From: a virus
Reading direction: 5' to 3' (one strand)
IMG/VR virus record: IMGVR_UViG_3300027294_000017
Location: 1-28,519 of that record
DNA length: 28,519 nucleotides
The position numbers were made by a program, and so were the translations under genes. This document shows, piece by piece, positions 1,474 to 27,312 of this stretch (its first letter is position 1; each line of letters opens with the position of its first letter). A model generated the notes under the pieces. That model was not told where the DNA came from and did not search any database. It worked only from the letters and a program-made list of their open reading frames with translations.

Positions 1474-2445
1474 ATGATTGATTACAAAAAAGTTGATTGG
1501 AGCAAGGCCGCAAATGACACACTGGCCGATTACGAGAAAGCAAAGTCAAAATCAACACAGACTACCCAATCTAGTTCTGTTGACTTAACAAAGTATTTTA
1601 CAATTGCACTTGATGAGGGTGCAGCAAGTGGTGAGAAATCCGTTAGGATTCTACCAAATCAGGATGATCCAACCAAATGGTACAAAGTTGGTTTCTTCCA
1701 CAATCTTAAAATTGGTAAGAGATATACCAAACTCTACGATCCAGCTCAAGACAACGAGCCGTCACCACTTAACGACATGTACAAGTTCTTAATGAACACG
1801 GGTGACAAAGAGGATAAGAGATTAGCCGTAAATTATAAATCTAGACAATTCTTTATTGTTCGTGTTATCGAACGTGGTAAAGAACACGAAGGTGTTAAAT
1901 TCTGGAGATTCCCAGCTGTACAAGATGGTTCTGGAATCATGGACAAAATTGCACCGCTAGTTAAAAAATATGGTGCGTTCTGGAATCCTTACGAAGGATT
2001 TGACCTCACAATTTCAATGATTCGTGATAAATCAAAAGACTCTAAAGTTGGTTACACAAAAGTCGCATCTATCATCCCTGATAGAGAATCAAAATTGAGC
2101 GATGATGAAAACCAAATGGTTGAATGGTTGAGCGAACCAATGGCCTGGACTGATGTATTCAAGAAAAAACCATTGGAGTATTTGAGAATTGTATCTGAAG
2201 GTAATGAACCAATGTGGGATGCTGAACAAAAATGTTTTATCGCTAAGATCGAAGATGGTGTTGCAACCTATACGGGTACACCAACACCTAAGAGCTCTTA
2301 TGATGCACCTACATCAGCCGCTATGTCTGAAGACGATGCGGAAGATATGTCATCTATGACAGCACAATCTTCTGAAGAAAAAGAAGAAGAAACAGTAACT
2401 GAAGCACCAGGTGGTAAATTAAAAATTGACGATTTGCCGTTCTAA
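1474..2445 (+). CDS. 32: Single-stranded DNA-binding protein, T4 gp32-like
   Basis: 323 residues. The order matches T4 gp32: a charged N-terminal arm (about 1-35), a core with KSVRILPNQDDPTKWYKVGF (about 55-75) and RQFFIVRVIERGKEHEGVKFWRF (about 125-148), a second beta region (DLTISMIRD, VGYTKVASIIPD), then an acidic low-complexity tail from about residue 275. The protein should coat ssDNA at the fork and in recombination. Two features are odd. The region where T4 gp32 carries its histidine/cysteine zinc site reads YTKLYDPAQDNEPSPLNDMY, with no cysteine. The extreme C-terminus is KIDDLPF, like the DDIPF tip of bacterial SSB and unlike T4 gp32. The gene has its own promoter and terminator. Assignment is by pattern and context (uvsX next door). 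Confidence 0.85.
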   Translation: MIDYKKVDWSKAANDTLADYEKAKSKSTQTTQSSSVDLTKYFTIALDEGAASGEKSVRILPNQDDPTKWYKVGFFHNLKIGKRYTKLYDPAQDNEPSPLNDMYKFLMNTGDKEDKRLAVNYKSRQFFIVRVIERGKEHEGVKFWRFPAVQDGSGIMDKIAPLVKKYGAFWNPYEGFDLTISMIRDKSKDSKVGYTKVASIIPDRESKLSDDENQMVEWLSEPMAWTDVFKKKPLEYLRIVSEGNEPMWDAEQKCFIAKIEDGVATYTGTPTPKSSYDAPTSAAMSEDDAEDMSSMTAQSSEEKEEETVTEAPGGKLKIDDLPF

Positions 2446-2535: not shown

Positions 2536-3552
2536 ATGGCTATTAAGAAAAAAGAGTTCTCTTTTGAGGATTTAAAGAAAAAAATGAGTACCACAACTAA
2601 GTACAAAGCAGACATGTTTTTGAATTGTGGTGAAGCTTTCTTAGAAGCTTCGGGTGTACCTGGACCTTGTATGGGTCACATTAACATGCTTTTGGGTCAC
2701 ACAAACACTGGTAAGACTAGTGCTTTGATCGCAGCATCTGTTGATGCTCAGAGAAAAGGAATCCTACCTGTTTATTTGGTTACTGAAAAGAAATGGAGTT
2801 TTGAACATTGTCAATTGATGGGGTTAGAATGCGAAAAAAACCAAGAAACTGGTGAATGGGATGGTTTTTTCCTATACCGTGATGACTTTAACTACATTGA
2901 ACAAGTAACTGATTACATTAATGAAGTTTTAGATATGCAAAATAAAGGTGATTTACCTTATGATGTTTGTTTCTTCTGGGATTCAGTTGGATCAGTACCA
3001 TGTAAAATGACCTGGGAAGGTAAAGGCGGTAAACAACACACTGCTGGTGTTTTAGCTGAAAAGATTAACATGGGTATTAACCAAAGAATTAACAACAGTC
3101 GCAAAGAAACATCACCGTATTTAAATGGTTTGGTTGTTTGTAACTTACCATGGGTTAGATTACCAGATTCACCAATGGGTCAACCTAAGATGAAACCAAA
3201 AGGTGGTGAGGCAATTTATCAAGCCGCAACATTAGTGTTCAGATTTGGTAATGAGGCTGATGGTGGTATCAATAAGATTGATGCGACTTCTAAAGGTAGA
3301 AAAATTAATTTTGCTACTAGAACAAAAGTAACAGTAGATAAAAACCACATCAATGGTTTGGGTTACGCTGATTCAAAACTAATTGTTACACCACACGGAT
3401 TTATCACGGATGATAAACGTGACAATAAAGCCGCTTTGGATGCTTATAAAAAACAAACGTTTGAATATTGGGCAACTAAATTGGAAGACGCTAACTTTGA
3501 GTTGGAGGAATATGAAGTAAATCAGAAAGTCTCTTACTCAGATGAAGATTAA
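2536..3552 (+). CDS. uvsX: UvsX-type RecA-like recombinase
   Basis: 338 residues of the RecA/UvsX ATPase fold. Walker A is GHTNTGKT at 54-61. A glutamate (E84, in VTEKKWSF) is placed like the RecA catalytic Glu. Walker B is VCFFWDSVGS with D149, and a basic, probably DNA-contacting segment lies at about 205-225 (GQPKMKPKGGEAIYQAA). The C-terminus is acidic (EELEEYEV...SYSDED), as in RecA family proteins. It is somewhat shorter than T4 UvsX (about 390). The expected role is ATP-dependent strand invasion on ssDNA coated by the gp32-like protein, for recombination-dependent replication and repair. The last 11 bases overlap the start of the 5' nuclease gene, implying coupled translation. Confidence 0.92.
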   Translation: MAIKKKEFSFEDLKKKMSTTTKYKADMFLNCGEAFLEASGVPGPCMGHINMLLGHTNTGKTSALIAASVDAQRKGILPVYLVTEKKWSFEHCQLMGLECEKNQETGEWDGFFLYRDDFNYIEQVTDYINEVLDMQNKGDLPYDVCFFWDSVGSVPCKMTWEGKGGKQHTAGVLAEKINMGINQRINNSRKETSPYLNGLVVCNLPWVRLPDSPMGQPKMKPKGGEAIYQAATLVFRFGNEADGGINKIDATSKGRKINFATRTKVTVDKNHINGLGYADSKLIVTPHGFITDDKRDNKAALDAYKKQTFEYWATKLEDANFELEEYEVNQKVSYSDED

Positions 3553-4591
3553 CAAACCAGTTAGGCATAAGCCAAGGACTATACAAAATACTCTACTAAT
3601 AGATGGGGAGTATTTATTAAAACAGGGATTTCATGGTACCAAACAGCTTCAAGGAAAAGAAGGTAGCGTTGGTACCATTTTCCACTTCATCAACACGATT
3701 AAAAGATTCTATCAGGATTATGCGATAACCAAAGTTGTTGTTTTTTGGGAAGGCGAAAATTCAAAACAATTCAGACAAGGTTATTACCCTTATTATAAAG
3801 CAAATAGAAATAATAAGTTTACGGCTGAAGAGGTCTTTGATTTAGACCGACAAAGAATCAGAATAAAACAGTATCTTGAAGAACTTTTTATAAGACAAGT
3901 TGAAATACCAGGATGTGAGGCCGATGACGGGATTGCTTATTATGTTGTTAATTCACCAAATGAAAATAAGATAATCTACACCAATGACCGAGATCTTTTG
4001 CAGTTATTAGATGAAGACACTAAAGTTTGTCTAACAATTAATAAGGCTAAAGTAATGGTTTCATTAAATAATTTTGAAACATATTTTGATTATCACTATA
4101 AAAATGTTGGTATCATAAAAATGATTGCTGGCGATAGTAGTGATAACATATCAGGTTTACAAAATATTGGTGAACAAAAAGTGCTTAAATACTTTCCAGA
4201 AATTAAGAAACAACCAGTAGATCATGAATGGGTGTTAAACAGAACAAAAGAACTTTTAATTGAAAAACCAGATGATAAGGTGCTAAACACAATCATTAAC
4301 GGTGAAACAAAATGGGGTACATACGGTAATGATTATTTTTCTGTTATGAATAAAATCATAAACCTTAAACAACCATATATAACCGAACAATTAGAAGAAA
4401 CTGTATATGACATGGTTAATGAAACATTATCACCCGAAGGTCGTGGAGGTATTTCAAAAGTAATGGAGATGATGAAAGAAGATGAGCTATTAAATTTTTT
4501 ACCAAAAAATGATGACGGGTTCTTTGTTTTTTGGTCATCGTTTATTACTATTATAAAAAAAGAAACAAATGCATACACAAAAACAAAATAA
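3542..4591 (+). CDS. rnh: 5'-3' exonuclease / flap endonuclease (T4 RNase H-like)
   Basis: 349 residues with the FEN/PIN nuclease layout. LLIDGEYLLKQGFHG has D21 as first metal ligand. VVVFWEGENSKQFRQGYYPYYKANR spans 65-89. EADDGIAYY is at 126-134, YTNDRDLLQLL has D149 and D151, and the helix-three-turn-helix entry IAGDSSDNISGLQNIGEQKV has D198 and D201. By spacing from KANR to KKNR in T4 RNase H, E70 takes the place of a metal-binding Asp, a conservative change. The expected role is removal of RNA primers and flaps on lagging strands. The C-terminal part (about 225-349) is less recognisable. The gene overlaps uvsX by 11 bases and ends 1 base before the chosen start of the next gene. Confidence 0.88.
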   Translation: MKINKPVRHKPRTIQNTLLIDGEYLLKQGFHGTKQLQGKEGSVGTIFHFINTIKRFYQDYAITKVVVFWEGENSKQFRQGYYPYYKANRNNKFTAEEVFDLDRQRIRIKQYLEELFIRQVEIPGCEADDGIAYYVVNSPNENKIIYTNDRDLLQLLDEDTKVCLTINKAKVMVSLNNFETYFDYHYKNVGIIKMIAGDSSDNISGLQNIGEQKVLKYFPEIKKQPVDHEWVLNRTKELLIEKPDDKVLNTIINGETKWGTYGNDYFSVMNKIINLKQPYITEQLEETVYDMVNETLSPEGRGGISKVMEMMKEDELLNFLPKNDDGFFVFWSSFITIIKKETNAYTKTK

Positions 4592-4592
4592 C

Positions 4593-5048
4593 ATGGAAGA
4601 AAAAAGAGAACAGAGAAAATTTGAGTTCACGCTCTACTTGAATGATAACATCATCGTTCAAAGATTTTTTAACATCATTGGGTTCAACTATAAAGCGGTT
4701 AACTCATTAAACTTTAAATACGCAGTAGATGATAATATGCGTTTGATTCAAAGTGTCCTAAAAGATAGAACCCTCGATTTTATTACAGACCACAAGAGAA
4801 ATTTCTTGGAGACATCGGATTACGAACAAAATGATTCACAAGATGTGATGAAAATTGTTATTAAGCACGATGGTAAAGTTATTGCTTATAGAGAGTGGGA
4901 TGCGACAATCTACCCAGTTAAGGTTAGATACACCGTTGATATCCGCCAACACATCTATGATTTGATTACTAGAGTTCAAAAATGTTTGTGTACACCAACT
5001 AAAGAGTTGGAAACTAAATATTTAGATTATAGTTTGGTTGTTCAATAA
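4593..5048 (+). CDS. Hypothetical protein in the replication cluster, 151 residues
   Basis: A soluble mixed alpha/beta protein with no motif I can name. It opens with a charged arm (MEEKREQRKFEF), has strands around LYLNDNIIVQRFFNIIGFN and MKIVIKHDGKVIAYREW, and a helical tail (RQHIYDLITRVQKCLC) ending in YSLVVQ. I prefer the ATG at 4593, one base after the nuclease stop and behind an A-rich leader. The in-frame ATG at 4569 would add 8 residues inside the preceding gene. It sits between the 5' nuclease and the gp41-type helicase with short gaps, so a replisome accessory role (for example helicase loading) is attractive. It does not resemble T4 gp59, which is all-helical and longer. Confidence 0.7.
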   Translation: MEEKREQRKFEFTLYLNDNIIVQRFFNIIGFNYKAVNSLNFKYAVDDNMRLIQSVLKDRTLDFITDHKRNFLETSDYEQNDSQDVMKIVIKHDGKVIAYREWDATIYPVKVRYTVDIRQHIYDLITRVQKCLCTPTKELETKYLDYSLVVQ

Positions 5049-5064
5049 TAAATTTTTAAAATAA

Positions 5065-6495
5065 ATGGGTAATATAAATAGTTTTGAAGACTTAGGTAAA
5101 GATTTTCAGTTACAATTATTAAATGAGATAATTACAGATAACAAATTCGCTCAATCAATTATAGACATTATTGAGCCTAAATTTTTTGGGTCCGAGGCCT
5201 TTGTTAAGATAATGAAAGTAATAAAGCATTATTACAAAGACCATGAGGTTGTGATTAATAATTTTCCGTCTTTAATAACTGAGATTAATAATGATATTGG
5301 CGCTCAAGAGGTAGCGTTAAGAGCCCAATTACACGACACGATCAAATTAATCGAGGATTGTAAGATTGGTAATCTAAATATACAAAGAAATGCACAAAAG
5401 TTTTGTAAATTACAGTCAATCCGTGGTGCTGTAAATGAGATCAAAACAAAATTAGATAGGGGTATTATCGCTGACTACGATGAAATCGAAAAAAAGATAA
5501 AAGATGCCATCACATTTAAAGAGGAACAAGACCCAATCACACTATTTGATAACATGGACAATGTTTTGTCCGAAGATTATCGAGACCCAATCCCAACAGA
5601 TATTAAGGGTATCGATAAAGTCACTAAAGGTGGTTTAGCCAGAGGTGAGGTCGGTCTTGTCATCGCACCCCTAGGTGTGGGTAAAACAACATTCTTAACC
5701 AAAGTGGCTAGTGCTGCGTTTCTTAAAGGTAAGACAGTTTTACAAATTTTCTTCGAAGATAAAGAAGAGGCGATACAGAGAAAACACTTCTCCGCATTAA
5801 CAAGTATACCGTTAAGTGAATTAGCTGAAAATAGAGATGTAGTACTTAGAAGGGTCCAAGGAATAAAGGATGAACATAAGAACGACTTATTCCTACAGAA
5901 ATTACCAGCAGATGGTGTCACAATTCACAAGATAAAAAACATTATCAAGAAAATAAACTCAAAGGGTCAAAAAGTTGATGTGTTGGTGCTAGACTATATA
6001 GACTGTATTTCGATGGAAAAAGAATATGGTAATAGTGAAGAGTGGTCGAATGAAGGTAAAATCATGAGAGCGTTTGAAACGCTTGTTGATGAGATGAATG
6101 TGGTTGGTTGGACAGCAACTCAGGGTAATAGAAGTTCAACGAGTGTTGAGGTGGTTAAAACCGAAAATATGGGTGGTAACCTAAAGAAAGCACAAATTGC
6201 TCACTTTATTATGAGTATTGGTAAAACATTGGAACAAAAGGATCAAAAAGTTGCCACAATATCTATCCTTAAAAACCGTATGGGTGATGATGGTGTGATA
6301 TTTAAAGATTGTGTTTTCGATAATTCCAGAATACATATTGACACTGATGATGTCTTAACCGAGAAGGGTTTTGAATCACAAAAACAAATCAGTAAAATGG
6401 AGTTAAGAAAAAAACACATGGAAGAATTATATGGTAAACCAGAATCTGAAACAGAAAATGAAAATAATATTGTTGGAATTAGTGATGGATTGTAA
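5065..6495 (+). CDS. 41: Replicative DNA helicase, DnaB/T4 gp41-like
   Basis: 476 residues, essentially the length of T4 gp41 (475). A helical N-terminal domain (about 1-150) precedes the RecA-like motor. The motor begins near IPTDIKGIDKVTKGGLARGEVGLV, as in DnaB proteins. Walker A is APLGVGKTT (201-209). FFEDKEE (229-235) holds the likely catalytic glutamate, Walker B is VLVLDYIDC (306-314), and WTATQGNRS (about 350) is the Gln-containing sensor motif. KNRMGDDG near 405 fits the arginine-rich C-terminal motif. It should form a hexameric 5'-3' helicase at the fork. No primase (gp61-like) gene is adjacent in this window. An A-rich leader (TTTTTAAAATAA) precedes the start, 16 bases after the previous stop. 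Confidence 0.93.
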   Translation: MGNINSFEDLGKDFQLQLLNEIITDNKFAQSIIDIIEPKFFGSEAFVKIMKVIKHYYKDHEVVINNFPSLITEINNDIGAQEVALRAQLHDTIKLIEDCKIGNLNIQRNAQKFCKLQSIRGAVNEIKTKLDRGIIADYDEIEKKIKDAITFKEEQDPITLFDNMDNVLSEDYRDPIPTDIKGIDKVTKGGLARGEVGLVIAPLGVGKTTFLTKVASAAFLKGKTVLQIFFEDKEEAIQRKHFSALTSIPLSELAENRDVVLRRVQGIKDEHKNDLFLQKLPADGVTIHKIKNIIKKINSKGQKVDVLVLDYIDCISMEKEYGNSEEWSNEGKIMRAFETLVDEMNVVGWTATQGNRSSTSVEVVKTENMGGNLKKAQIAHFIMSIGKTLEQKDQKVATISILKNRMGDDGVIFKDCVFDNSRIHIDTDDVLTEKGFESQKQISKMELRKKHMEELYGKPESETENENNIVGISDGL

Positions 6496-19058: not shown

Positions 19059-19952
19059 ATGGCTATAGGTGTATATGGCGTTAAAAGACCAGCGGATGTC
19101 GACCCATCAGAAATAGAAGTAATTGTTTTATATGCTAAAACAAGAAATTCTGTCGATACTCAAACAGTTACAAAATTAAACGGTGTCGATGTAATGGCAC
19201 CAGTGTATGACCCAGTTAATCAAACTGAGGTTATGGGTGGTATGTACAACCTACAACTACCGAAAAGTGTGTTTAATGCCAAAGGGTATTATACGGTCTA
19301 CATTAGACCAGCACAAATTAGAATACCAATCGAAGATTGTTCGGAGTTAGCTAGTTTCCCAGACATTAAAGGTTTAGTTTTTAATCTTGATAACGCACCA
19401 GCCCAGTTCAGATCTAAATTTACAAACAACGGTTTGGATGGTTTTAGGGTTGAATATTTAAATGAAAACGGTAGTAAGGTGCAAAATTTATATAGAATTG
19501 TGACATCATCTTTTATTGTTGAACCAGTACAGGTTGACACAGCTAATAGTTCAGTTAAAACGATAAAATATACGTACAATAATGTCGGTACTCTATTGTT
19601 TTGTACGGTGACACCTAACGCAGCACCTAGTTTTAAACCAACAGCAACACCATTTATTGGTTATAAGGGTCAAAATATAATATTGACTAGCACTAATTTC
19701 ACGCCACAAGTTTTTGAGGTTGAATTAGTTAACTACGATGCTGAAAGCCTTGCAATCGCATTGTATTCCGATCAAACCAAATCAATGGAAGATGGAATAT
19801 ATACGCTATATGATTTTGATGGTAATATATACCAGCAGTATGATCTATATGAAATCAAAGATGCAACTGATAAAAAATTATATGAGGTTAGAACAAGAAG
19901 AAATAATATTGACACAACAAAGGCATTAAATAACATTATAGGAAATGGCTAA
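19059..19952 (+). CDS. Unrecognised structural protein, 297 residues, beta-sandwich-like
   Basis: Begins MAIGVYGVKRPADVDPSEIEVIVLYA and is almost entirely beta in character: YYTVYIRPAQIRIPIED (about 82-98), SKVQNLYRIVTSSFIVEPVQVD, KTIKYTYNNVGTLLFCTVTPN, then a second domain with GQNIILTSTNFTPQVFEVELVNYDAESLAIALY. The final 40 residues turn polar and basic (YEVRTRRNNIDTTKALNNIIGNG), possibly a helical attachment tail. No enzymatic motif is seen. The stop lies 8 bases inside the giant gene downstream. A plausible role is an adaptor or chaperone-like partner of that giant protein, but nothing in the sequence proves this. Confidence 0.75.
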   Translation: MAIGVYGVKRPADVDPSEIEVIVLYAKTRNSVDTQTVTKLNGVDVMAPVYDPVNQTEVMGGMYNLQLPKSVFNAKGYYTVYIRPAQIRIPIEDCSELASFPDIKGLVFNLDNAPAQFRSKFTNNGLDGFRVEYLNENGSKVQNLYRIVTSSFIVEPVQVDTANSSVKTIKYTYNNVGTLLFCTVTPNAAPSFKPTATPFIGYKGQNIILTSTNFTPQVFEVELVNYDAESLAIALYSDQTKSMEDGIYTLYDFDGNIYQQYDLYEIKDATDKKLYEVRTRRNNIDTTKALNNIIGNG

Positions 19953-22900
19953 TCTTAGTTACACAAATACACCATTAATAGCGGATTTATATGATACACC
20001 TGAAGCTGCATTAGATGCTGCATCTAGTTTGGGTTGTAATGGTTATAGAACATACAATATAAATGGCGAAACAAAATATGTTCCATGTTCTAGTTTTTTG
20101 ACCTATGAACAATCCTTAAGATTTAAAAAATCACAAGGGGTGAGCAACGCTATATCTGGTTTTGGTAATATTGCTGATAAAGCGGTTGGTTTACAATTTG
20201 CAAATGCTAATAGTGAGGTAAACGGTGACCCATTTTTTACTTTAGGTAATTTCTCAATATCAACTGCACAAACACAAACAACATCTAATGGTAAAAATAC
20301 TATTATTTCTGGTGGTAAAGAATATACAGCCGAAAAAATAAATCAGAAAAATCCGTTTAAAAGTAGTGCTGTATCAGCAATTGAACAGGTTAGTCAGAAA
20401 ATAGAAAATAATTTAACAGTTACAGTTTTATTTGATAAAGATAAACTAAAAAACTATGTTCTATTCTCGCCTTTTAAGGAAACGGTTAAAAATAGTATAA
20501 TTGATGTGACAAACCAATTCCCAGCAGGGCTTAAAATGAATGTAATTGGTTTAACAACACCAACCATAACTGAATATAATTACACACCATCAACGGATAC
20601 AGCTGAATTTAAAATCAATTTGAGGAACATAAGCAATCCATACCAAATTGAGTATACAACATCTGGATCAACTAAAAACGATGACGTAAATTTAAGTCCA
20701 CTTAGAAATTTTTCAAAAACTTACACTAGTTACGTATTATATTACAATGGTGTTGAATATAGGATAATAAATGCAACTTTACCAGCATCATACGAGGACT
20801 TTTCAACTGGTTTGTATTTAACGGTTGAAGGAGATCCATTTGTAAACGATGTAAACTTAGATTTGACCGTAAATAGAAACTTTTGGGTTAAACCGAAAAA
20901 AGAGAAATACGATGAGTTTTACAATAAATTACCCGATATGGGTAAATTTTTGTTGAATTATAACTACGATGAAAAGAAATACGTTAGTAATATAAAATAT
21001 ACAAAAACAACAGATAACGGTGTTGATATTAACACCAACGAAAGACTAGTATTCCCCCAATTTGATGAGGTTAACATAGATTTATTTAGTACGGATTTCG
21101 ATCAGTACTTAACTAAATTAAATGATGTTGCTGACTCTTTCGATGCGACAAAATCAAATTTAATTTCTAGATTTTTAACAACAGATTCTTTAAGAGAATT
21201 CGATACTGATGATAGAAAAGTTAACTTAATGTTTAATATTGTTGGTAGGAATTTCGATAATATTAGAAAATATGTGGATGGTATAACCTTCATGACAAAT
21301 TTAAGTTATGATAAGGTTGAAAATATACCAGACCTACTGATTAAAAATTTCGGTAATATGCTTGGATTCCAAACATATAATATCGAAGATGAGAACACCT
21401 TGGTTGAATCTTTATTCAATATAAAAGATTTAAACATCGAACCTGGTCTAACACCAACAGAAGTTGATATCGAGTTATGGAGAAGGGTTTTCATTAACGC
21501 ACACTATCTATGGAAATCAAAAGGAACCAGAAAATCAATTGAATTTATTTTAAATTTAGTTGGTTTACCAGACTCTATATTTGAGGTAAATGAGTACATA
21601 TACCAAGCAAGACAAAAGGTTAATTATGATGAAAAGGTTACTGAAACATATGGTTTCCTTTATAACGATGCGCAATTAACGGGTTTATTACCGTTTGACA
21701 AAGATGGATACCCAACCACACCCCCAGGTATTAGATACCAAGAAGCTGGTTTTAACTCATCAAATGATAACAAAAATTTTGGTCCATATGATTTTGGTCG
21801 ATCATATATTGATGGTTATAGAAAACAAGTCAATGTCAATATTTTTGATTTAGATAGAGTTGTTGACAATGTTAAATCTTGGGCTTATAGTGAAGAAGAG
21901 GTACTTAGGTTATCTGAAACGACTGTTGGTTACACGGAATATTATGAAAAGGACTCTAGATTAATAGTTAACACTAAAGAACTAGAAGTTTACATATCAA
22001 GCGATAAAATATTTGACATTACATTATATAGATTTTTAAATAGAAATGAAATTGAAGTAAATTCAGACCTAACCATTGATAACGTAACAAATATTAATGC
22101 GGGTACATTATCATTCAACCAATTTATGAGGGAATCTTTAGATAACTACATAAAAGTTGGTAACAGAAAAACAATTAAAACCTACCCAACGCTATCAAAA
22201 ATTTATTTTGATTATTTAAAGTTAACCGATAATCCAGTAACACAAACAAAAAGTTTAGAATTCCTAAACATGTTTGATAGTTCTTGGGTTAAATTGGTGC
22301 AACAGTTCACACCAGCGACAACAATATTGAATGCGGGTAAAAAGATACAAAATAGTAAATTTTTAGATAATAAATTTATTTATAAACACGGACTTAATCA
22401 GTCTGTTTCATGGGTTGGTACAGATGGATCAGAATTCCAGAATAAAGCTAATTTACCAGTAAATGTGGGTAACACAAACCCATTTGATGTTTCTGGGTTT
22501 AAAAAAGACGCTGTAACTGGCGAGTCCTCAACATTCACATTGGTGGGTCAAAGAGGTAAAAACTATGTTGGAACCGATCCAACAATAAATGAATATTTCG
22601 GTAACTATTTTGGTATTGAATATGCCTGTGAAGGTGTCGATATATATAAGTGGGATCCAGAGAAAAACTATGGCGATGACTTAGAGTTTAACGGGAACGT
22701 AAACACAGGAACTGGACCTAGATACGGTGTTTTTGTTATATACGAAAACAATCTTTATAGATTAAACACAAATAGGATGTTTACTGGTTTAGACACAATA
22801 AACACCTCTATGTATGAAGCAAATTCAGACATATTATTAGGTTCGGTCGATGATTTTGAGACCATAACATTACCAGCTGGACCAGGTGAGTACGAAATTT

Positions 22901-25900
22901 CGTTTACGATTAGTAGTAATGACGATTTGGTTATTTATGATGGTGGTATGATCGGAGGGGTTGAGGTTTCATCCTTAGGTAGGAGCGGTAAGATAACCAC
23001 TTTTAATGAGACCATAACATTCACCACATCGACAGTGACTTTTTGGAATATGAACAATTGGCCAAATGATATGATCATGTCCAATTTAATTATTAAACAA
23101 AAGCACGAACCAAATAGATACAAAATTGGTGGTGAAAACGTTTATGAGTTAATACCTTTAGGCGTTGACGCATCAACAATAGAATTTAAAGACTCTCCAT
23201 GGGGCCTTATTAGTGAAATAGAGAGAAAATATTACATTGAGGCTGTTGGTATTGGTCATGCTTATATGACTGCTAATGATGACTACATATGCCCAGTACC
23301 TAAACCACATACTTGTTATTATGATTATAGTGGTTTAACAATTAATATGGCTACACCAGGTATAACATCCTACTATGATGAGACTGGGACATTATTAACA
23401 ATCGAACAACCAAAATATTATGGGTACTCGAAAAACACATCAACGACTGAAAAACCAGAAGATGCTGTGTACGGTAGTTCTGGTAATTGGGCTGTACCGT
23501 ATAGAAGACCAAACACCTGGACAAATGGTGTTGTTTACTATTCTGGTGATGTTGTAACTAAATCATCGGTTAATTATCTAGTGACAGGATCAACTGTAAC
23601 TGGCTATACTGTCAGTGGGGTACCGAGTGGGACAACATTAACAACGATAGTTCCAGGATTATATCAAAATTATGACTTAAGAACTAAGACGGACCCATAT
23701 ATGCATATAGATTCCGCATATATTAAGAGATTAAGGTTAAACCCGTTAAATGATAGGATTTCAATAAATTTATCTAAAAACTTATACCTTTTCCAGGTAT
23801 ATAAGGGGGCAACGCAATACGACACATACAAGGTTACTGATAACATATTAAATGACGAATTGTACCTATCTGACTCAACAACAATAACTTTTGACGGTTT
23901 ATATTCTTTAGACGAAACCAAGATAGGCCCTTTCTATACCGCTAACACTGACGAGGTCATAACAAGTACATTAATAGACACCATACTACTTGTTGCCGAT
24001 AAAGATAATTATGTTGACATACAGTCACTAAATACCAATTTTGATGTATTAAACAATAACATAGGTGTTGGCGCTGGTTATTATTTGGTTAAAAATAATG
24101 CTTTCCTAAAAATGGAATTCGATTTATATTTTGAATCAGAGTATAATTTACAACAAGATGTTGATATTAAAATATTGAATCAATTAGGTGAGGCCCTATA
24201 TACACAAACATTCACCTTCTCAGGTAATGATATGGCACAAGATAGAATCGCTTCAGTTGATTACGAAGATGTGTTTGAGGTTGATAGTAAAATATATTTG
24301 GTAATACAACCTAAAGTATATGAGTGTACATTATCTAGGTACGAAAAAATAGAAATTGATTATACGGAACCGACTACCTATTCAGACGAAAACGACCCAA
24401 GATTTAGGGTGTTATTTAATGGGGGTAGATCATTAATAGATGGTAGATATACGGATGATGTTATATCAATAGAACCAATAGTAACAAACCTTAATGATTT
24501 TAACATCGATTATTTTCTATATAAAACAGATAATATATTAGATACATATAAATTTAGAACTAGACCAAACATATCAATATCATATGATGAAAGTAGTTAT
24601 TTTGGTTTATTATATGGTAATTATTATGAAAAGTACAAACCAGCCAGTGTTGTTGGTGACGTAAGTGTTTATGAAAAACTATTTAATAACGATAAAATTG
24701 ATTTTAATTTAGTTGTAAGGTCAAAAGAACCACAATCTATCTTAAATCAGGACCAATCTCAAGAAGGGTTTTATCGTGAATACACAATATCCTCTTCAGA
24801 TAATTATTTAGGTAATACACCGCAAGAAATTGAGAATACTAGTTTAACTAAATCAATAATAATTGGTAAAAATCCAAAACCTAGAACGAAAAAATTAAAT
24901 AAAAAAGATTTCACGTTTTTAAGGTCATATAAAAATAATAACATATTAAACGCATCTGCGTCTACAATTGATTTTATTAGTTATGATGAAGGTTTCACTG
25001 ATTACGATTTAATAGATTTTAACAGTAACATTGAAGATTCTTTCCTTGAAAAAAGAAGATATATAACCGCAACGGGTTATTATGAGAGAGAAAAATCGGT
25101 ATACGGTACACAATTATATAAAGATATTTTGGCCGTGGTACCATATTTTGACCAAACTGTAAATAACTATAAAGTTAATGATATCGTTAAAGTTAAATTA
25201 ACCAATTATAATGCGGTTGTTGAAACAGAAACTGGTACAACAATCGAGGTTAAGTCCGTTGACCGATTATATGTTTGTGTTGAAGATATCACCACAAACC
25301 ACTTAAGAAAGAAAACTGGCGTTTCTTATTTAATGAACATACACCCAGTGTATCAACCAAATGGTGCTAGAGCATCATTTATTCCTATTGAGGAATACGA
25401 TGTGAGATCTTTTACACCAATTGGGTATGATAAGTATCAGAAATTTAATTCGGTTAAAGCTAATCAGTTCCCATATAAGTATGAAACGGTTAAACAATTT
25501 GCTGGACAACCAACTTCACTATTTGATATTGGTGACATAATTAAAGTAGCTGGAACAGGCTCAACTTATACGCTTTATGAGTATGTTTACAATAAAGCAA
25601 TACCATTTGACACAACAAACGTTTACCCCGTTGGTTCATTCGTATACACTAGTGGCTCAACGTATAATGTTGATGGCAGATATAGTTTTTGGATGAAAAA
25701 AACAGCCACTGGTACAACAATACCTGTTGCTGGAACTAATTGGCAAGAATTTAGATACGATGCAACATCAATAACGGGTACACCGTTCTATACTTTTGTT
25801 GATCCATCTATAAACCCAGATCACCCTAATCTAGCTTTATCACCGTCTGCATATAGGCTTAAAAATTTAATTCCAACAATGGAAGACGGCACTGGTAATA

Positions 25901-27312
25901 GAATATACATACAATATACTGGTGTCACAAATATGGTTTTCGCTGACATAGTACCATCTTATTTACCGATGGAAAAAACTAATAACCAGTATGACGGTGT
26001 TGATGTTATTGACTATTTGATCATGACAGGTACCACTGGTAACATACAATATAGTGGTACAACTGGTACGATATATACTGGTTATACGTTAGATACGAAC
26101 TTAATACAAAACAACTATACGGCACTTAATGCGAATACTTTACCATCGTTAAGGTACGCTGGGTTAAACCAAGAAAGAAATGTAACCCCACTTTTCCATA
26201 GATTGTGTACTAACTTGGATGATGATAGTATATATGACTGGTCATCAACTAAAACATACGCACAAACAACTACAAGTATGAGTGGTAGATATGCTTTGAA
26301 TAGAAACGTACTCTATAGATCGGTATCCACAACATCGGTATCAGGTACAACTGAACCTTACGCTGATGCGACTAAATGGGTTGAGAATGACTTCATGTTA
26401 GTTAAGGCGTTTACATTCTATAAAGATAGAACCAGAGTTAAAGTTTATGAAGGTAAAATAGAATCTTTGGATAGTGCAACTAAAAATAGTTTATATTTCT
26501 TTAAAAACGATTTAACATTAAAGAACGGTTTTACCGAGAACTCATTTAGCGGGACAACAAAAAATAATAAATTATTAAATGGTCTTAACAAATTAGCTGA
26601 CGCTAAAAATGAAAATGTTAGGGACGTCAACCAATATGGTTTATTTGGCTTTAGAAAATTTGGTAGTGACATAATAATGGATTATTACTATGCGAGGGAT
26701 AATAATAATTTACCATTAACTGGTGAATTTATTGGTGGATTAACTTTAAATAATCCGTGCGGTCATCACGCTAAAGTAATATTTGGTCTATTATTAGATG
26801 CTGACTTTAGTGATATAACGGAATTGTCACCTAGACAACAAACACAACCAGCCTTACCAATAATAAGTGCCTTAGATTTTAACCCTAATGTTAGGTTGAT
26901 TATTAATCAAAATGGTGCTTCTGATGTCACAGTAACAGTTACTTCTGTTAATGGCGGAGTATCAAATGGTTTGGTTAATTATAAAAAATCGCTTAAAAAG
27001 TACGAAGCTTTAGATAAATCATTTACAATAAACGAAGCAGATTCTATTATTGTTAAAGTAACATACGATACTAATTTAAATAAAACAAAATACGCTAATG
27101 GTATTATTGATGGTTTTAAATTATTTGAAACAAACGATGTTGGTATAAACAATGAGTATGTTGTGGCAACTAAATCTAATGTTGGTAAAGTTGTAACTAG
27201 AACAATAACGCTTAAAAATGTTTATGAAGACAGGGTTATTAAATTAGATTTTAATGGGGCTAACTACACTGAAATTAACACAGTTGACCCAAAAGATTTT
27301 ATAAAATTTTAA
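19945..27312 (+). CDS. Giant tail/baseplate protein with a tail-protein-I/gp7-like module and carbohydrate-binding-like repeats
   Basis: 2455 residues in one open frame. Residues about 385-555 resemble the tail protein I/gp7-type wedge module: a helical lead-in, LPDLLIKNFGNMLGF-like segments, then W512-R-R...HYLWKSKGTRKSIEFILNLVG with the conserved KGT at 526-528. A jelly-roll-like stretch (about 970-1055) follows. Several segments have the aromatic spacing of CBM5/12-type chitin-binding-like modules (W, then Y..G..V, then NLY/NYL, ending P....W): near 903, 1192, 1736, 1893-1933 and 2099-2145. The last is the clearest (YDWSSTKTY...NVLYRSVS...EPYADATKW). The C-terminus is beta-rich. It probably combines wedge assembly with surface or receptor contact. 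It overlaps the upstream gene by 8 bases and is the largest gene here. Confidence 0.8.
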   Translation: MANLSYTNTPLIADLYDTPEAALDAASSLGCNGYRTYNINGETKYVPCSSFLTYEQSLRFKKSQGVSNAISGFGNIADKAVGLQFANANSEVNGDPFFTLGNFSISTAQTQTTSNGKNTIISGGKEYTAEKINQKNPFKSSAVSAIEQVSQKIENNLTVTVLFDKDKLKNYVLFSPFKETVKNSIIDVTNQFPAGLKMNVIGLTTPTITEYNYTPSTDTAEFKINLRNISNPYQIEYTTSGSTKNDDVNLSPLRNFSKTYTSYVLYYNGVEYRIINATLPASYEDFSTGLYLTVEGDPFVNDVNLDLTVNRNFWVKPKKEKYDEFYNKLPDMGKFLLNYNYDEKKYVSNIKYTKTTDNGVDINTNERLVFPQFDEVNIDLFSTDFDQYLTKLNDVADSFDATKSNLISRFLTTDSLREFDTDDRKVNLMFNIVGRNFDNIRKYVDGITFMTNLSYDKVENIPDLLIKNFGNMLGFQTYNIEDENTLVESLFNIKDLNIEPGLTPTEVDIELWRRVFINAHYLWKSKGTRKSIEFILNLVGLPDSIFEVNEYIYQARQKVNYDEKVTETYGFLYNDAQLTGLLPFDKDGYPTTPPGIRYQEAGFNSSNDNKNFGPYDFGRSYIDGYRKQVNVNIFDLDRVVDNVKSWAYSEEEVLRLSETTVGYTEYYEKDSRLIVNTKELEVYISSDKIFDITLYRFLNRNEIEVNSDLTIDNVTNINAGTLSFNQFMRESLDNYIKVGNRKTIKTYPTLSKIYFDYLKLTDNPVTQTKSLEFLNMFDSSWVKLVQQFTPATTILNAGKKIQNSKFLDNKFIYKHGLNQSVSWVGTDGSEFQNKANLPVNVGNTNPFDVSGFKKDAVTGESSTFTLVGQRGKNYVGTDPTINEYFGNYFGIEYACEGVDIYKWDPEKNYGDDLEFNGNVNTGTGPRYGVFVIYENNLYRLNTNRMFTGLDTINTSMYEANSDILLGSVDDFETITLPAGPGEYEISFTISSNDDLVIYDGGMIGGVEVSSLGRSGKITTFNETITFTTSTVTFWNMNNWPNDMIMSNLIIKQKHEPNRYKIGGENVYELIPLGVDASTIEFKDSPWGLISEIERKYYIEAVGIGHAYMTANDDYICPVPKPHTCYYDYSGLTINMATPGITSYYDETGTLLTIEQPKYYGYSKNTSTTEKPEDAVYGSSGNWAVPYRRPNTWTNGVVYYSGDVVTKSSVNYLVTGSTVTGYTVSGVPSGTTLTTIVPGLYQNYDLRTKTDPYMHIDSAYIKRLRLNPLNDRISINLSKNLYLFQVYKGATQYDTYKVTDNILNDELYLSDSTTITFDGLYSLDETKIGPFYTANTDEVITSTLIDTILLVADKDNYVDIQSLNTNFDVLNNNIGVGAGYYLVKNNAFLKMEFDLYFESEYNLQQDVDIKILNQLGEALYTQTFTFSGNDMAQDRIASVDYEDVFEVDSKIYLVIQPKVYECTLSRYEKIEIDYTEPTTYSDENDPRFRVLFNGGRSLIDGRYTDDVISIEPIVTNLNDFNIDYFLYKTDNILDTYKFRTRPNISISYDESSYFGLLYGNYYEKYKPASVVGDVSVYEKLFNNDKIDFNLVVRSKEPQSILNQDQSQEGFYREYTISSSDNYLGNTPQEIENTSLTKSIIIGKNPKPRTKKLNKKDFTFLRSYKNNNILNASASTIDFISYDEGFTDYDLIDFNSNIEDSFLEKRRYITATGYYEREKSVYGTQLYKDILAVVPYFDQTVNNYKVNDIVKVKLTNYNAVVETETGTTIEVKSVDRLYVCVEDITTNHLRKKTGVSYLMNIHPVYQPNGARASFIPIEEYDVRSFTPIGYDKYQKFNSVKANQFPYKYETVKQFAGQPTSLFDIGDIIKVAGTGSTYTLYEYVYNKAIPFDTTNVYPVGSFVYTSGSTYNVDGRYSFWMKKTATGTTIPVAGTNWQEFRYDATSITGTPFYTFVDPSINPDHPNLALSPSAYRLKNLIPTMEDGTGNRIYIQYTGVTNMVFADIVPSYLPMEKTNNQYDGVDVIDYLIMTGTTGNIQYSGTTGTIYTGYTLDTNLIQNNYTALNANTLPSLRYAGLNQERNVTPLFHRLCTNLDDDSIYDWSSTKTYAQTTTSMSGRYALNRNVLYRSVSTTSVSGTTEPYADATKWVENDFMLVKAFTFYKDRTRVKVYEGKIESLDSATKNSLYFFKNDLTLKNGFTENSFSGTTKNNKLLNGLNKLADAKNENVRDVNQYGLFGFRKFGSDIIMDYYYARDNNNLPLTGEFIGGLTLNNPCGHHAKVIFGLLLDADFSDITELSPRQQTQPALPIISALDFNPNVRLIINQNGASDVTVTVTSVNGGVSNGLVNYKKSLKKYEALDKSFTINEADSIIVKVTYDTNLNKTKYANGIIDGFKLFETNDVGINNEYVVATKSNVGKVVTRTITLKNVYEDRVIKLDFNGANYTEINTVDPKDFIKF

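Follow-up and report, generated by a model that had tools for sequence, protein, structure and literature searches.

The window, that is the whole 28,519-nucleotide stretch of viral DNA analysed here (IMG/VR record IMGVR_UViG_3300027294_000017, positions 1 to 28,519), encodes a gp32-family single-stranded DNA (ssDNA)-binding protein of 323 amino acids (aa; 1474-2445, plus strand, as for all window features up to position 6495 described below), which ends in KIDDLPF (2422-2442), a peptide resembling the C-terminal tip (SSB-Ct) of bacterial ssDNA-binding protein (SSB). Our main reading, to which we assign a probability of about 60%, is that this peptide is a convergent SSB-Ct-type docking tip used mainly for phage-encoded partners; we infer the docking, the partners and the route by which the tip arose. 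Tip-bearing gp32s are found in T4-related phages that make up a large, mostly uncultured family.

The gp32 gene has an ATG start, and its product ends in ...GGKLKIDDLPF followed by the stop codon. Residues 53-235 match the Pfam gp32 family PF08804 (E 2.7e-10, 41 bits), for which the gathering cut-off is 26.8 bits. PHROG yielded no convincing match for this protein, sequence and profile searches of the PDB returned chance matches only (hemolysin E, ribosomal L19), and no match to the bacterial SSB domain PF00436 was detected. An AlphaFold2 model built on a 69-sequence alignment of relatives (pLDDT 80.6) contains a structured core (residues 37-265, 1582-2268; pLDDT mostly >90, with residues 41-265 mostly >80) and a disordered C-terminal region (residues 266-323), consisting of a hypervariable S/T/E-rich linker (residues 266-316, 2269-2421; pLDDT about 40-54) and the tip. 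In Foldseek searches with this model, all six PDB matches at E <= 0.001 were RB69 or T4 gp32 (E 4.5e-9 to 9.3e-7; target TM-score 0.55-0.65), and the probability of 1.00 against 1gpc and RB69 gp32, with target TM-scores of 0.61-0.65, identifies the gp32 core fold. Given both the profile and the fold match, the assignment to the gp32 family stands, and cooperative ssDNA binding is predicted from family membership. A sequence-only reading of the window had proposed a gp32-like protein in which KIDDLPF follows a long acidic linker, and had called for structure prediction and comparison with T4 gp32; the predicted fold is gp32-like, and the linker is indeed acidic (12 D/E, 3 K/R), although not unusually so, as T4-type gp32 tails have a similar acidic fraction. 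The LDDLL-type end of T4 tails is replaced by DDLPF.

Relatives were collected from three IMG/VR scans, two loci from metagenome-assembled genomes (MAGs) and Microcystis phage Mel-JY01, giving 104 distinct complete proteins. None of the IMG/VR search patterns included the tip, and since one of the scans contributed the best 80 of 597 loci, the family is larger than this sample. Down to about 27% identity, 103 of the 104 relatives have acidic residues followed by a terminal L/M-P-F; the end is DDLPF in 61, EDLPF in 22 and a sequence one or two residues off in the others, and Mel-JY01 is the sole relative without the P-F end. The sequence-only reading had asked whether DDLPF is conserved in homologues, and conservation of the terminal motif is what the family shows. 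Among 79 representative genes, Pro and Phe are unchanged in all 79 while being encoded by four and two different codons, respectively, and the Leu/Met position is represented by six Leu codons and ATG. As Pro and Phe are kept despite this synonymous variation, the codon patterns indicate that the tip is under purifying selection at the protein level. Even close relatives differ in how long the linker is and in its composition, and on one contig (L033) it is nearly gone while the protein still ends in LDDLPF.

The P-F end is rare outside this gene. In the loci of the relatives, PF is the terminus of 102 of 747 distinct open reading frames (ORFs) with 100 aa or more; in 101 the end reads [DE][LIM]PF, and just one PF-ending ORF lacks the KFW motif of gp32, a partial copy of 200 aa whose end, APSSNEYDDLPF, is the tail of a gp32 relative. 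Only one of about 650 distinct ORFs in the non-gp32 background of the same loci has a PF end, and none of 64 distinct T4-gp32 relatives has one; a 206-kb relative has 221 ORFs, of which the gp32 gene alone ends this way. Conservation of the tip, as read from these sequences, is no accident. The terminus is of the SSB-Ct type, with acidic, hydrophobic, Pro and Phe residues following a disordered linker, and because it is almost invariant across the family, it is probably used in this gp32 clade to dock partner proteins. An acidic C-terminus could instead serve only autoregulation, shielding the ssDNA cleft when the protein is free of DNA and docking no partner. The tail of the window protein is acidic and disordered, and the last acidic segment of T4 gp32 (residues 273-301) has been proposed to act on the protein's own DNA site (PMC11551737). 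However, the invariance sits in the uncharged L-P-F residues, and the acidity of tip-bearing tails ranges from 6% to 42% while P and F are fixed; we therefore regard a purely autoregulatory tail as improbable.

Under the docking-tip reading, gp32 would coat the phage ssDNA, with its long disordered linker carrying a terminal docking peptide, xDDLPF, that would work like the C-terminal tip of bacterial SSB. Projecting from the ssDNA-coated filament, the tip would dock in a basic/hydrophobic pocket on partner proteins and bring these to phage ssDNA. The most likely main partners would be products of the same operon, which encodes a UvsX-like recombinase (2536-3552; PHROG 97, E 4e-9; order kept in all clades), a 5'-3' exonuclease of the T4 RNase H/FEN type (3542-4591; Pfam 5_3_exonuc_N, E 3e-28), orf159 (4569-5048) and a DnaB-like replicative helicase (5065-6495; PHROG 19, E 6e-56). 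The order gp32-UvsX-exonuclease-orf159-DnaB is kept in 24 tip-bearing loci from three clades. Directly downstream of gp32 lies a strong intrinsic terminator (2459-2510; 18-bp stem, T run, -26.7 kcal/mol, z -7.8), which suggests that gp32 is probably transcribed alone, as its own unit, from a promoter at 1421-1450. Farther along the window, a single 2455-aa ORF (19945-27312) is located near baseplate/tail-like genes and has a 2672-aa relative in the 206-kb record.

The orf159 product is clade-specific, contains two similar repeats with a RYTVDIR-type motif and matches nothing convincingly in Pfam, PHROG or the PDB. Its family was identified in 104 of 104 tip-bearing loci with enough downstream sequence, a count in which some contigs are represented by more than one extraction, and in none of six tipless whole records (immuto, Mel-JY01, LR756508, PTm1, T4 and S-CAM1). 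As both tip and orf159 are confined to one clade, their co-occurrence amounts to effectively one evolutionary event. Orf159 is a candidate partner, and a tentative elaboration, which we hold to be rather unlikely as a whole, is that the gp32 tail was converted to a hub peptide of the SSB-Ct type together with a tip-reading orf159 and is cross-compatible with host SSB partners. If orf159 does read the tip, a phage replication interactome would have been rebuilt with a bacterial docking code on a gp32 fold. No bacterial-type SSB (PF00436) was found in ten relatives' records of 113-328 kb, leaving gp32 as the main, and only detected, ssDNA-binding protein of the phage. A search with PF08993, for which T4 served as positive control, likewise revealed no gp59 helicase loader in the relatives, a result that does not in itself identify a replacement.

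Promoter motifs provide indications of the hosts. A promoter of the form TTG-N19-TATCTTTG lies upstream of the window's gp32 gene (1421-1450) and conforms to TTG-N17-23-TAnnTTTG, the known Bacteroidota promoter type. The paired motif is present upstream of gp32 in 5 of 6 members of the window clade and in 29 of 32 of a clade with zinc-bearing members (zinc clade), where about 3% is expected; only the pair is informative, as TAnnTTTG alone is not enriched in the window (53 occurrences vs 48 expected). On this basis, both the window clade and the zinc clade are assigned to Bacteroidota hosts. In the third clade, the paired motif is absent (0/37) and TTGAC/TAnnnT is found instead in 21 of 37. The TTGAC/TAnnnT promoters of the gp32 genes of L120-L166, which often stand directly after a terminator, indicate hosts outside Bacteroidota, where this sigma70-promoter clade probably belongs. 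A profile search of genome contigs yielded two MAG contigs, both of the zinc clade, one in a Bacteroidales and one in an Izimaplasma bin; because binning can be wrong, such placement is weak host evidence.

The sequence-only reading had suggested that the tip recruits host SSB partners such as RecO, PriA or exonuclease I (ExoI), or competes with host SSB for them. Among 32 listed Bacteroidota SSBs, 15 end in DDLPF, most others in xLPF and only three in IPF. Since these SSBs mostly end in DDLPF, docking of host RecO, PriA or ExoI via the tip is possible and chemically plausible, and as the peptide is the commonest Bacteroidota SSB tip, host SSB-interacting proteins would probably be engaged as well. 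In its strong form, in which the tip mimics that of host SSB so as to recruit or titrate RecO, PriA, RecG, RecQ and ExoI, this idea appears doubtful to us. A tip aimed at host proteins would account equally well for the match to Bacteroidota SSB tips, Bacteroidota-type promoters occur in the window and zinc clades, and the E. coli SSB tip is known to bind many partners (PMC7145534). Yet the tip is not set by the host: it is kept with both Bacteroidota-type and sigma70-type promoters, and it is missing in both Flavobacterium phage immuto, whose operon is the same, and Tenacibaculum phage PTm1. Host phylum alone thus does not explain the tip, and the notion that Bacteroidota hosts dictate it can be discarded. 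Furthermore, none of the 103 phage tips uses Ile before the Pro-Phe end, although some Bacteroidota SSBs do, and the phage family has replisome proteins of its own; the 206-kb relative, for instance, encodes PolB, a primase, an SNF2-type helicase and a sigma factor. The latter, a sigma-70-like protein (L293:16526-17329), comprises regions 2 and 4. Based on the independence from host phylum and the strict linkage to orf159, phage-encoded partners are at least as likely as host RecO, PriA and ExoI.

In the gp32 tree, the tip-bearing proteins group as a single clade (UFBoot 98), which is also obtained without the linker, tip and zinc columns (SH 0.875). In core-only gp32 trees that include immuto and LR756508, support for this grouping is weak (UFBoot 45; SH 0.014), and the tip may instead have been lost in the immuto/Mel-JY01/LR756508 sister lineage. 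In a concatenated UvsX, exonuclease and DnaB tree, immuto, Mel-JY01 and LR756508 are set apart from the tip-bearing phages (99.9/100); with the root placed on this sister group, the tip-bearing phages divide into the window plus sigma70-promoter clades (100/100) and the zinc clade (100/100). The simplest history is a single gain of the tip followed by one zinc loss common to the window and sigma70-promoter clades.

The sequence-only reading had left open whether the phage protein converged on the host docking peptide or borrowed it. The gp32 fold, the lack of PF00436, purifying selection on the tip and, most simply, its single origin lend good support to convergence on an SSB-Ct-type peptide that would serve docking. 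Capture of the tail from a host ssb gene by recombination could account for the same pentapeptide occurring in host SSBs. However, the residues preceding the last five showed no resemblance to host SSB, point changes could produce a peptide this short, and Flavobacterium phage immuto lacks the tip. The tails of the sister lineage end in FDDLFN (KFDDLFN), FDDLFNKD (EFDDLFNKD) and FSEIFDE, the first two of which already include DDLF and could yield DDLPF. These tails suggest that DDLPF is a remodelled older gp32 tail, and borrowing from the host seems highly improbable; the tip would have arisen once, most simply from an acidic FDDLF-type tail.

The window protein also has a degenerate zinc site. 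In an alignment of 171 gp32-type proteins, the H, C, C and C ligands of T4 gp32 share columns with H76 (1699-1701), D89 (1738-1740), S97 (1762-1764) and N100 (1771-1773) of the window protein and with H..YCPAHN..CPLC in zinc-bearing relatives. As had been noted from the sequence, no cysteine occurs in the T4-type zinc region, and the protein's sole cysteine, C254, lies outside it. The zinc columns of tip-bearing proteins read HCCC in 36, HDSN in 56 and variants (HDST, HDSS, NDSN) in eight, with three gapped, and those of the immuto/Mel-JY01 group read HSDE or HSDV. In a second T4-type gp32 lineage (L191-L246), which has SFFEQLAND-like tails, the zinc cysteines were lost independently (HSDS/HSDG). 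Considering these other lineages, the HCCC site is typical of the gp32 family rather than a requirement for membership, and its absence is not special to the window protein. Because the single tip-bearing clade includes zinc-bearing members, the alignments indicate that zinc loss is real, recurrent and an event separate from the tip. The idea that the tip makes up for the missing zinc site is rejected, as 36 zinc-bearing relatives have the same tip.

Gp32 and bacterial SSB are textbook cases of two separate SSB designs that differ in their tail codes. A gp32 clade that uses the bacterial one would mean that what can be reused is the docking peptide rather than the fold. No description of a gp32-fold protein with an SSB-Ct-type tip was found in the open-access literature, which does not prove absence, and a tblastn search of 50,697 phage records with three tip-bearing queries retrieved no tip-bearing relative, its sole matches being Mel-JY01 and gp32s of marine cyanophages. 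Tip-bearing gp32 would be a natural reagent for asking whether phages tap into the SSB interactome of the host or have imitated its logic for proteins of their own, and the sister pair of immuto (FDDLFN) and the window clade (DDLPF) makes this question testable within one host phylum.

Among known systems, the gp32s of T4 and RB69 share with the window protein the core fold, the ssDNA-binding family, the setting among replication genes and a disordered acidic tail, but differ in their H/C/C/C zinc site (H/D/S/N in the window protein) and LDDLLNDL-type tail. T4 gp32 recruits Dda via residues 248-270 (PMC11551737). Far-T4 phages have been linked to aquatic Bacteroidetes (PMC7198788), and no recognisable gp32 was found in the Far-T4 isolate RM378. 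The closest cultured comparison is immuto (L302, 2426-9483), in which gp32, RecA, exonuclease, DnaB, nrdB and nrdA are ordered as in the window and which encodes a family A polymerase. Both immuto and Mel-JY01, members of the sister lineage, share the gp32-UvsX-exonuclease-DnaB order and the lack of zinc cysteines with the window, but carry FDDLFN and FDDLFNKD tails instead of DDLPF and, unlike the window, have no orf159 between exonuclease and DnaB or elsewhere in the record. T7 gp2.5 and Enc34 ORF6 are phage SSBs that likewise have a disordered acidic tail, implicated in partner contacts in T7 gp2.5; they belong to another SSB fold group, and the accessible part of the source describes no DxPF tip for them (PMC5686142). 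Bacterial SSBs (...DDLPF in Bacteroidota, ...DDDIPF in E. coli) share the disordered linker and the acidic-Leu/Ile-Pro-Phe end with the window protein, but belong to a different domain family (PF00436), and the partners of the window protein are only presumed. In phage HK620, the last six residues of an SSB with the tip NDYPPF are needed to bind and stimulate the RecA-like, phage-encoded Sak4 (PMC5928155). While HK620 SSB was compared with E. coli SSB in that study and the window protein is of the gp32 type, HK620 combines a bacterial-like tip with a phage partner, as proposed here.
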